64,000 nucleotides of DNA from positions 62,001 to 126,000 of the forward strand of contig JAGWJY010000001.1 of NCBI GenBank assembly GCA_028865545.1. The letters are read 5' to 3'. Below, piece after piece: positions 59,976 through 63,686 of the stretch. The notes under the pieces were generated by a model, which saw nothing but the letters and a program-made list of their open reading frames with translations, made no database searches and was not told the DNA's origin. The stretch is from Alphaproteobacteria bacterium. GTDB lineage: Bacteria; Pseudomonadota; Alphaproteobacteria; Micropepsales; Micropepsaceae. The position numbers were made by a program, and so were the translations under genes. Numbering within the stretch: the stretch's first letter is position 1; each line of letters starts with the position of its first letter.

Positions 59976-60656
59976 ATGAAGGAAGGTCCCAGCATCGCCC
60001 AGATCGCCGCCCTGGCGGGCGATCCGGCGCGCGCCAACATGCTGGCGGCGCTGATGAGCGGCAAGGCGCTGACCGCCAGCGAACTCGCCAACGAGGCGGG
60101 AGTGACGCTGCAGACGGCGAGCTCCCATCTCGGCAAGCTCGAAGGCGGCGGCTTGATTGCCGGCGTCAAGCAGGGGCGGCACCGCTATTTCCGCCTGTCG
60201 GGCGGCGACGTCGCCGAGATGCTGGAAAGCATGATGGGCGTGGCGGCCCGCGCCGGCCATCTGCGCACGCGCACCGGGCCGAGCGATCCGATGATCCGCA
60301 AGGCGCGCGTCTGCTACGATCACTTGGCCGGCGAGATGGGCGTACAGCTGTTCGAGCGACTGACGGCGCTTGGGCATATCGCCGGGCGCGACGCTGACGT
60401 CCACCTGACGCGGCGCGGAGAAGACTTTGCAGCGAAATTCGGCGTCGACTTGCAGGCGCTGGCAGCGCAGCGCCGCCCGTTATGCAAGACCTGTCTGGAC
60501 TGGAGCATGCGCCGCCACCATCTGGCGGGTAGCCTGGGGGCGGCGCTGCTCGAACGGCTTTATGCGCTGAAATGGGCGACGCGCGACAAGCACGGTCGCG
60601 CGATCCTCTTCAGCCGCAGCGGCGAGGCGAAATTCGCCAAGCTGCTGGCGCGCTAG
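59976..60656 (+). CDS. ArsR-type winged-helix transcriptional regulator
   Basis: ALAGDPARANMLAALMSGKALTASELANEAGVTLQTASSHLGKLEGGGLIAGVKQGRHRYFRL. Confidence 0.92.
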   Translation: MKEGPSIAQIAALAGDPARANMLAALMSGKALTASELANEAGVTLQTASSHLGKLEGGGLIAGVKQGRHRYFRLSGGDVAEMLESMMGVAARAGHLRTRTGPSDPMIRKARVCYDHLAGEMGVQLFERLTALGHIAGRDADVHLTRRGEDFAAKFGVDLQALAAQRRPLCKTCLDWSMRRHHLAGSLGAALLERLYALKWATRDKHGRAILFSRSGEAKFAKLLAR

Positions 60657-61046
60657 TTATTCGGCCTTCTTCAGCATATCCGCCGTCTGTGCGGCAGCGG
60701 CCTTGGCCTTGGCAAGATCGGTTTCCGCGATGCCTGCGCTCGCCTCTGTGGCGGCGGCCTGCAACGCCGTCTTGGTTGCCGTCTTCGTGGCGTCGGGGAT
60801 CGCGCCGCTGCCGGCATGCGCGCAAGGATCCATTTCCTTGGCGTCGAAGCCAGCGCCGTTCGGTCCCACCAGACAGTTCAGCGTGTGGTGCAGATGCATG
60901 TGCACGGTGGCGACGTCGGAACCTTGCGCGGCAAGTCCGGCATGGGTCGCGGCAATGACGATCTCCGAATGTCCGTCGGCCAGCGCGGCCGCGGGCAACA
61001 GCAGGGCCGCGGCGGCGGCAAGCGAAAGCAGCATCGACTTCTTCAT
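60657..61046 (-). CDS. Small secreted protein with HMHLHHTLNC motif
   Basis: MKKSMLLSLAAAAALLLPAAALADGH signal peptide; VATVHMHLHHTLNCLVGPNGAGFDAKEMDPC. Confidence 0.75.
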   Translation of the reverse strand: MKKSMLLSLAAAAALLLPAAALADGHSEIVIAATHAGLAAQGSDVATVHMHLHHTLNCLVGPNGAGFDAKEMDPCAHAGSGAIPDATKTATKTALQAAATEASAGIAETDLAKAKAAAAQTADMLKKAE

Positions 61047-61078
61047 GGATATTTCCTTCCGAAAAGCCGGCTCTGCCG

Positions 61079-61720
61079 CTACCAGCGCAAACTGAAGCGG
61101 CCGAGCACGGCGCCAAACGCTCCGACCAGAATGATGCCTAGCGTATACCAGATTGCGAGGAACGGCATCCCCGGTTCGGGGCAATGGAAGGCATAGATGA
61201 AGGCGCCCAGCGCGCCGGCCACCAATCCGCCGGTGGCGCCCGCCAGGACGGGCCGGGTTGGCGCCAGTTTCCGCAGTGCCCAGAAGACGCCGATGAAGAT
61301 CGGCAGGGCCAGGACGACGACATGGTAGGGACACAGATCGTACGAACTGCCGAACAGCATGATGTATTGATCGCTGGCGGGCGTGAAGCGCCACGACCAG
61401 GCGGCCAGCAAGGCCATGACAACAAAGGGGAGCGTCATCGCCGCCAGGCGCGCCGTGGCTTTGGCGCCGGGACGCGCCAGGCGTTCGAGCGCCGCCAGGG
61501 CGACGAGCGCGAACAGCAAGGTATAGAAGAACTTGGCCCAGAAGATGGGCGTGGCGAACACGGCGAGCATGTGATGGCGCACACCAAGCCACTCCTGCAT
61601 CAGCAAGGCCGACACGATGGCGCCACCGCCCAGTCCGATCGCCAGCGTGCGCAGCATCGCGCCCGGCGCCACCGGCTCCGCCCGCTCGGCCAATTGTTCG
61701 ATCAGCGCATCCGTCTTCAT
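61079..61720 (-). CDS. NrsF/DUF1109-type membrane anti-sigma factor
   Basis: MKTDALIEQLAERAEPVAPGAMLRTLAIGLGGGAIVSALLM; six-TM-like profile; overlaps the ECF gene. Confidence 0.88.
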   Translation of the reverse strand: MKTDALIEQLAERAEPVAPGAMLRTLAIGLGGGAIVSALLMQEWLGVRHHMLAVFATPIFWAKFFYTLLFALVALAALERLARPGAKATARLAAMTLPFVVMALLAAWSWRFTPASDQYIMLFGSSYDLCPYHVVVLALPIFIGVFWALRKLAPTRPVLAGATGGLVAGALGAFIYAFHCPEPGMPFLAIWYTLGIILVGAFGAVLGRFSLRW

Positions 61721-62253
61721 GGTTCGCGTCCGATCATAGCGGATAGCGTCTTCAGCGCGCGGTGCACGCCGACTTTCACGGCCGATTCCGACATGCCGGT
61801 GCGTTCGGCAGCTTCCGCCGTCGATAATCCTTCGATCTTCACATGCCGCACCAGGCGGCGGCGCGACTCGGGCAGTGCCGCGAGCAGTTTCTCGACGTCG
61901 CGCGCGGCGTCGCAGGACTCGGCTTCTTCTTCAGCGAACACCGAATCCGCTTCCTCGAGCGGCAAGGTGCGGCGGAGCTTCGAGCGGCGGTAATGGTCGA
62001 TCAGCTTGTAGCGCGCGATGGCGTGCAGCCAGGCGGTGAAGGGCTGTGCCGTATCGTAAGTGGCGCGGCGCGCGTGAATGGCAATCAGCGTTTCCTGCAC
62101 CAGGTCCTCCGCATCCGCGCTCTGCCCCATGCGGCGCGCGTAATAGGCCCGCAGATGGGGAGAAAGCGCGGTCAGCAACGCGCGGTACGCCGCCGCATCG
62201 CCCGCCAGCGCCGACAGCATCAGCGCCTTCAGCCGCGCCTCGGCAGCGCTCAT
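61717..62253 (-). CDS. ECF sigma-70 factor
   Basis: SADAEDLVQETLIAIHARRATYDTAQPFTAWLHAIARYKLIDHYRR; sigma4 LSTAEAAERTGMSESAVKVGVHRALKTL. Confidence 0.95.
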   Translation of the reverse strand: MSAAEARLKALMLSALAGDAAAYRALLTALSPHLRAYYARRMGQSADAEDLVQETLIAIHARRATYDTAQPFTAWLHAIARYKLIDHYRRSKLRRTLPLEEADSVFAEEEAESCDAARDVEKLLAALPESRRRLVRHVKIEGLSTAEAAERTGMSESAVKVGVHRALKTLSAMIGREP

Positions 62254-62272
62254 ATCGGCATCCTGGAATGAA

Positions 62273-62299
62273 TTCGCACGAAGTGGGCCGCTCGTTACA
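62273..62299 (-). promoter_or_regulatory. ECF-type promoter TGTAACG-N16-CGAA driving the sigma operon
   Basis: Minus-strand TGTAACG (62299-62293) and CGAA (62276-62273) with exactly 16 nt between. Confidence 0.75.
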
Positions 62300-62311
62300 T
62301 CGCGAATCCAG

Positions 62312-62338
62312 TGTAACCGAAGTCCCGGCACCCTCGAA
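62312..62338 (+). promoter_or_regulatory. ECF-type promoter TGTAACC-N16-CGAA driving the Met/His-rich gene
   Basis: TGTAACC 62312-62318, CGAA 62335-62338, 16-nt spacer. Confidence 0.78.
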
Positions 62339-62374
62339 CTAGCAAGTACAACCAGTCACCACACGGAGTTGACC

Positions 62375-62788
62375 ATGAAGACCCTAGTCCCAGGATGGAA
62401 TTTGCTTGCCGCTGCCGCCTTTGCCGGGGCGCTGGCCACCGGCGCCGCCACGGCCGCTGATTCCGCGATGTCGAATTCTTCGATGTCCCACACCAATTCG
62501 ATGTCGTCGGATCATATGTCGAGCAGCCATATGTCGTCCGGTCACATGTCGACCAACCATATGTCCGGCAATGCGATGTCTTCCGATCACATGTCGGGCG
62601 GCGCGATGAGCTCCGACCACATGGCGGGCAATGCAATGTCCGGCGACCACATGAAGAATAAGAAGAAGAACAAGAAGCACGCCATGAACCACAATGGCAT
62701 GACACACGACGGCATGGCCCACGACAACATGAAACACGACGGCATGGCGCATACGAATGCCATGACCGGCGGCGGTATGGGTCATTAG
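62375..62788 (+). CDS. Secreted Met/His-rich pentapeptide-repeat protein (MxxDH-type)
   Basis: Signal peptide; MSSDHMSSSHMSSGHMSTNHMSGNAMSSDHMSGGAMSSDH...MNHNGMTHDGMAHDNMKHDG. Confidence 0.88.
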   Translation: MKTLVPGWNLLAAAAFAGALATGAATAADSAMSNSSMSHTNSMSSDHMSSSHMSSGHMSTNHMSGNAMSSDHMSGGAMSSDHMAGNAMSGDHMKNKKKNKKHAMNHNGMTHDGMAHDNMKHDGMAHTNAMTGGGMGH

Positions 62789-62796
62789 AACAACGC

Positions 62797-62928
62797 TCGC
62801 TTTCTCCCCCGCTTGCGGGGGGAGTGCCGCCGAAGGCGGCGTAGGGGGCGACGTCCCCTACGCTCCGCTGTGCGGAGCACCTCCCCCGTGAAAGGGGGAG
62901 GAAAGCGCTGCGCCGTCGTCTCTACTGG
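62797..62928. repeat. Composite nested palindromic (REP-like) element
   Basis: Five successive hairpins enclosed by an outer CGCTTTCTCCCCC...GGGGGAGGAAAGCG inverted repeat. Confidence 0.8.
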
Positions 62929-63332: not shown

Positions 63333-63686
63333 ATGGTGAATGCTTCTGGAAGCGCCCCCATACCGGCGACCGAGTCGGCGCGGACGCTGACGATCATCAT
63401 CTATCTGCTTTATCTGGCGGCGCTGGTGAACGGCATCACCGCGATCATCGGCGTGGCGCTGGCTTACGCCAAGCGCGAGGACGCGCGCGGCACGCCGTAT
63501 GACAGCCACCTCGCCAATGCGATCGAGATTTTCTGGGTATTCCTGCTCGGGATGCTGGTCGCCGTACCGCTATGCTTCGTGATCGTCGGCATTCCGCTGG
63601 TGATCGGGCTGTATATCTGGGTGATCTTCCGCACCGTGAAGGGGTTGGTGCGCGCCGTCGACGGCCGGTCCTACTACTATTATTAG
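63333..63686 (+). CDS. DUF4870/Tic20-like membrane protein
   Basis: IIYLLYLAALVNGITAIIGVALAYAKREDARGTPYDSHLANAIEIFWVFLL. Confidence 0.85.
   Translation: MVNASGSAPIPATESARTLTIIIYLLYLAALVNGITAIIGVALAYAKREDARGTPYDSHLANAIEIFWVFLLGMLVAVPLCFVIVGIPLVIGLYIWVIFRTVKGLVRAVDGRSYYYY

Follow-up and report, generated by a model that had tools for sequence, protein, structure and literature searches.

The closest described systems pair an ECF sigma factor with an anti-sigma factor of the NrsF family. BcrX of Brucella melitensis is an MXKDX repeat protein under the control of an anti-sigma factor of the NrsF family. HOCl induces it together with the rest of the bcrXQP operon, which adds to the resistance against HOCl; BcrX is proposed by the authors to be a sacrificial sink regenerated by MsrQP (PMC8315932). 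BcrX is a homolog of MrpX of Azospira, and both are periplasmic methionine sinks induced by an ECF16 sigma factor/NrsF pair under hypochlorite. For Azospira itself, a published summary describes a mechanism of methionine cycling in the periplasm that is made up of sigF/nrsF, yedYZ and mrpX, and places exported MsrA/MsrB in some perchlorate islands (PMC4623255). The EcfF/OsrA pair of Bradyrhizobium japonicum combines an ECF16 sigma factor with a DUF1109 anti-sigma factor that senses through cysteines; its inducers are H2O2 and singlet oxygen, and the OsrA regulon includes three methionine-sulfoxide reductases (PMC3420878). The SigF/NrsF pair of Caulobacter, finally, responds to chromium and cadmium and drives bufferin (DUF2282/DUF692) operons. 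The consensus of the sigma-F promoter in Caulobacter is GTAACC-N16-CGAA (PMC3511200).

The stretch analysed here, referred to below as the window, comprises 64 kb from the MAG-like assembly of a soil-type alphaproteobacterium (3.4 Mb, 95.7% complete). The genes, their families, the promoter motifs and the conserved layout were read from the sequence. Positions 60657-62788 hold four genes. Three of them encode an ECF sigma factor, an NrsF anti-sigma factor and a small secreted protein with His and Cys; the fourth, divergent from these, encodes a secreted Met-pentapeptide protein. An earlier note on this DNA had described an ECF sigma gene overlapping an NrsF/DUF1109-like gene, a small secreted HMHLHHTLNC protein behind them and a divergent, His-rich repeat protein, and all of these are indeed present. 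The features of the locus are the following.

61717..62253, minus strand: ECF sigma factor, predicted to be of the SigF/ECF16 type (Sigma70_r2 and r4; ATG at 62253).
61079..61720, minus strand: NrsF membrane anti-sigma factor (PF06532, 218.9 bits against a cut-off of 26.8).
60657..61046, minus strand: small secreted protein of 129 aa with HMHLHHTLNC and C58/C75, the third operon gene in this clade.
62375..62788, plus strand: secreted Met-pentapeptide repeat protein (MrpX/BcrX-like) of 137 aa, His-enriched (TIGR02953; ATG at 62375).
62313..62338, plus strand: predicted sigma-F promoter of the repeat gene, GTAACCGAAGTCCCGGCACCCTCGAA (GTAACC-N16-CGAA, the exact consensus, 36 nt before the gene).
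62273..62298, minus strand: predicted sigma-F promoter of the sigF-nrsF operon, GTAACGAGCGGCCCACTTCGTGCGAA (GTAACG-N16-CGAA, one base off the consensus).

The ECF sigma gene and nrsF share 4 nt at their junction (ATGA, stop/start); the latter is the only NrsF gene of the source genome, and GC3 lies between 0.78 and 0.84 in all four genes. In Brucella/Ochrobactrum loci that have the characterised layout, the sigma factor is 48-51% identical to the one encoded here. With 151.7 bits the anti-sigma factor stays below the cut-off of 300 of the NCBIfam equivalog NF042994 (AntiSigF_NrsF), and we therefore refer to it as a member of the NrsF family and not as the named Caulobacter equivalog. In the surroundings of the locus, an ArsR-like regulator gene (59976-60656) is convergent with the HMHLHH gene, an arrangement that is also found at the loci L161 and L184. 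On the other side, a GC-rich palindromic intergenic element (62788-62910), the probed arm of which is single-copy in the window, and a gene for a small membrane protein (63333-63686) lie 3' of the repeat gene; relatives of the latter occur in the same area at several nrsF loci (L066, L067, L068 and L080).

Two cysteines stand out in an alignment of 14 NrsF sequences, Cys130 being invariant and Cys180 nearly so (it is missing in the distant L092). They correspond to C129/C179 of OsrA, C131/C181 of Caulobacter and C129/C179 of Brucella. C179 of OsrA is required for the response to H2O2 (PMC3420878); in the window protein, Cys180 is the likely sensing residue. The NrsF family serves both metal-linked and oxidant-linked regulons, so that the sensor by itself does not reveal the stimulus, which is deduced here from the effectors.

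The main effector candidate is the repeat protein. An N-terminus that resembles an export signal (judged by eye) is followed by tandem pentapeptides led by Met; of the 109 residues of the mature protein, 20 are Met and 15 are His. Sixteen Met-x4-Met spacings were counted, against a maximum of 10 in 20,000 residue shuffles (p < 5e-5); Met-x3-His and His-Met pairs occur seven times each. The protein matches NCBIfam TIGR02953 (pentapeptide MXKDX repeat protein) with 67.6 bits (cut-off 41, E 7e-19); no Pfam family was matched. Its counterparts in Brucella tritici, Phyllobacterium, Microvirga and the nearest relative (L161) score 66.2, 53.0, 54.8 and 60.6 bits, respectively. Compared to the canonical MXKDX units, Asp is common (MSSDH) but Lys at position 3 is rare, the Lys residues being clustered in KNKKKNKK; the His-richness of the repeats and the scarcity of the Lys-Asp of canonical units count against a methionine sink. 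In its DNA, the gene contains repeats that are 15 and 30 nt long. The possibility that the pentapeptides are an artefact at the level of the DNA was rejected in view of the TIGR02953 matches in relatives, the Met content across homologs and the residue shuffles.

A comparison of 32 repeat proteins (the row of L207, which is out of frame, was left out) showed that Met makes up 11-30% of the residues throughout while His varies between 0 and 14%, with the window protein the richest in His and the window, L161 and L184 providing the most His-rich forms (11-14%). On the sequence level it is thus Met, and not His, that is conserved among the homologous repeat proteins, and the protein is predicted to be a sacrificial methionine sink.

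The divergent region between the repeat gene and sigF spans 121 nt and carries both predicted promoters, neither of which had been noticed in the earlier note. A relaxed sigma-F pattern occurs three times in the 64 kb window (0.53 expected), and sites at corresponding positions recur in many relatives. Genome-wide, however, GTAAC-N16-CGAA is no more common than its reversed control (24 versus 25 sites), so that most sites must be attributed to chance and only position and conservation carry weight. Scans for generic sigma-70 promoters and terminators gave no useful result. A script was used to select promoter-placed sites, i.e. those located 20-150 nt before an ORF start and outside long genes. 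This left the two sites of the window and sites before genes on the contigs C11, C68 and C66 and, weakly, near purC (C88). On C11 the motif lies 43 nt upstream of an msrB-msrA operon, the msrB product of which scores 194.8 bits against TIGR00357; by eye, both Msr proteins have N-termini like export signals. On C68 it lies 45 nt upstream of the genes for a cytochrome b561 (PF01292) and a molybdoenzyme. The latter reaches 105.1 bits against the MsrP equivalog NF003767, below the cut-off of 207, and is for that reason called MsrP-like only. The pair is homologous to the pair beside bcrX-type genes in Brucella (L197, L199, L210 and L217), with 48-51% identity for the MsrP-like protein and 44-46% for the cytochrome. 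Moreover, the motif (at most one mismatch) is found upstream of 7 of the 12 operons of the C68 type in the genus, as compared to 5 of 610 background windows. None of the 24 genome-wide motif sites lies near the second MsrA gene (C93) or the other gene of the PF00174 family (C65). Judged from these sites, the regulon is predicted to include both types of exported Msr enzyme, although their genes are scattered. On C66, the exact GTAACC-N16-CGAA is found 59 nt upstream of a gene for a TonB-dependent receptor (C66:1098; L136/L113), which may represent a further sigma-F target or chance. In one relative (L143, genome G021) the cytochrome b561/MsrP-like operon carries a sigma-F motif and the assembly, which is about 95% complete, yielded no NrsF match.

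The earlier note had called for a survey of DUF1109-ECF loci for repeat neighbours. NrsF is present in 26 of 61 relatives; TIGR02953 matches were obtained in five genomes, and in all five they adjoin nrsF. A secreted Met-rich protein of a Ser/Ala type, which stays below the TIGR02953 threshold, is faced by the majority of the other nrsF loci in the genus. In total, 62 NrsF loci were named, 55 of which have usable flanks (the window included). An opposite-strand ORF within 2.5 kb was counted as Met-rich if it has 8 or more Met in 50 residues; such an ORF faces NrsF at 31 of the 55 loci, whereas a single one was found in the control loci (174 kb). A cytochrome b561/MsrP-like pair is nearby at 26 of the 62 loci, MsrA at four, DUF1223 at several and DUF2282/DUF692 at one; outside the NrsF loci, genes for a cytochrome b561, an MsrP-like protein and a repeat protein are adjacent at L153. 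Individual loci show how varied the effectors are. The DUF1223 genes (CSSCPPAN motif) repeatedly separate the Met-rich gene from the sigma-F motif (L163, L166, L168, L173, L182 and others), and their product is possibly an electron donor or thiol partner. The NrsF locus L092 (G045), the NrsF of which lacks the second conserved Cys, faces an msrA-like and an msrB-like gene, the latter with an export-type N-terminus. At L181 (Rhizobiales AFS091992, 584-3415) a Met-rich gene and a DUF2282/DUF692 pair each have a sigma-F motif upstream, implying that a bufferin pair and a Met-rich protein can share one regulator.

The locus is most probably a SigF/NrsF (ECF16) response to oxidants in the envelope, of the kind known for MrpX and BcrX, with its reduction arm dispersed in the genome. 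Several features lead to this reading: a TIGR02953 match above the cut-off and at a level similar to that of the Brucella tritici counterpart, sigma-F motifs in both directions as published for bcrX/bcrS, the motif before the Msr operons of C11 and C68 and its retention in relatives of the C68 type, the recurrence of Met-rich ORFs and of the b561/MsrP-like pair at NrsF loci, a Met content that is high throughout while that of His is not, and the conserved sensor cysteines that match those of OsrA. The stimulus, the release of the sigma factor, the oxidation of Met and the repair are adopted from characterised homologs. The sigma factor would be retained by NrsF at the inner membrane until reactive chlorine species, or another stress that oxidises thiols or methionines, is sensed via NrsF. 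The freed sigma factor would transcribe its own operon and the divergent Met-pentapeptide gene, the exported product of which would use up the oxidant through the oxidation of its approximately 20 methionines. The exported Msr enzymes of the same regulon, encoded by msrB-msrA on C11 and by the cytochrome b561/MsrP-like genes on C68, would then regenerate the sink and repair envelope proteins.

The resemblance to BcrS/AbcS-BcrXQP extends to the ECF16 sigma factor, the two-Cys NrsF-family anti-sigma factor, the divergent MXKDX protein, the identical promoter consensus in both directions and the MsrQP-like genes in the regulon (PMC8315932). In Brucella, however, a single operon starts with the repeat gene and continues with the MsrQP-like genes, whereas here the homologous pair is located on another contig behind a motif of its own. 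The window genome in addition has an exported msrB-msrA operon, the HMHLHH gene after nrsF and His-rich repeats. The His enrichment, the extra operon gene and the dispersed Msr operons are features of this lineage. The SigF/NrsF-MrpX-YedYZ system of Azospira suillum PS likewise joins a sigma/anti-sigma pair to a Met-rich peptide and a MetSO reductase (PMC4623255, PMC8315932), and the window genome shares the exported MsrA/MsrB with some perchlorate islands (PMC4623255); the comparison covers the scheme and the gene content, the gene order differs and a perchlorate setting is not expected here. With the bufferin operons of Caulobacter the locus shares the sigma and anti-sigma families, the promoter and the two conserved NrsF cysteines, but the effectors are different.

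The earlier note had favoured a metal-buffering function, in which the Met/His-rich and HMHLHH proteins bind Cu, Ag or another periplasmic metal under SigF/NrsF and thereby replace the bufferins. The abundance of His and its pairing with Met are in line with this proposal, as are the Caulobacter precedent, where Buf1 chelates copper, and the lack of any match to the MNIO/DUF692 enzyme of the bufferin systems (PF05114) in the 95.7% complete source genome. Moreover, genes of the DUF2282/DUF692 type occupy the position of the Met-rich gene at two divergent NrsF loci (L089 and L090, in G002 and G054). This layout, the ECF/NrsF module and the predicted output agree with the broader proposal of a stress module with a Met-rich output in the DUF2282/DUF692 position. 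As the best reading of the locus, however, metal buffering gave way to the MXKDX family match, the Msr operons at the motif sites and the conservation of Met instead of His, which is variable among homologs at the same position. The co-regulated candidates are methionine-sulfoxide reductases and not metal pumps or chelators, and the characterised homologous loci answer HOCl. We consider metal buffering unlikely.

Nor is the HMHLHH family tied to the sigma-F motif. Its family occurs in 30 of the 61 relatives, all of the same genus, and is absent from the other genera of a class sample of 289 genomes. Its place in the nrsF operon is confined to a small clade (the window, L161, L162, L172, L184 and L185), in three of these six cases after a gene of the SYLF type; outside that clade the gene does not adjoin nrsF. 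A sigma-F motif (at most one mismatch) was found in none of the 30 regions upstream of the family's genes, so that the family is no general sigma-F target; a role as bufferin replacement was rejected because the family is mostly unlinked to NrsF and lacks the motif. Profile searches gave no Pfam, NCBIfam or PDB relative of the protein; no Pfam match was consistent within the family, and a Psb31 match of one member (7e-4) was taken as chance. An AlphaFold model (pLDDT 79) shows a four-helix bundle, for which the best matches in the PDB were uninformative bundles of the cytochrome b562 type (E ~0.1 or worse). H35, H51, H54, N57, C58, P74 and C75 are invariant or nearly so, a pattern that would be compatible with a possible metal or haem site.

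It is conceivable that both functions are combined in this clade, the repeat protein being an oxidant sink whose added His would, along with the HxHxHH four-helix protein, bind metal as well and thereby curb oxidant chemistry driven by metals. The most His-rich repeat proteins all have the HMHLHH gene in the operon, and H35, H51, H54, C58 and C75 are invariant in that family. However, L162, L172 and L185 possess the HMHLHH gene and no His-rich repeat protein, and the family is genus-wide and mostly unlinked, which makes a dual function rather improbable. Equally doubtful is the more specific suggestion that the methionine sink of the clade became a joint sponge, with the MSSDH-type repeats and the HxHxHH protein binding a redox metal and scavenging hypohalous acid under one sigma factor. 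It is highly implausible that the Met-rich protein has no relation to the module and is secreted as a structural or neutral protein, with an incidental gene position. Low-complexity repeats expand readily and DNA repeats are present, but NrsF loci of many genera show the same position, promoter and Met content, and Ser and other codons differ between the repeat units.

Read as a methionine sink with dispersed Msr partners, the locus is no longer a speculative metal system but joins the oxidant defence by methionine cycling that Azospira and Brucella are known for. NrsF loci of many Alphaproteobacteria, mostly organisms of soil and water, commonly follow this scheme. Moreover, since NrsF is paired with effectors as varied as Met sinks, bufferins, DUF1223 proteins and MsrA/B, what it senses becomes testable by comparison.
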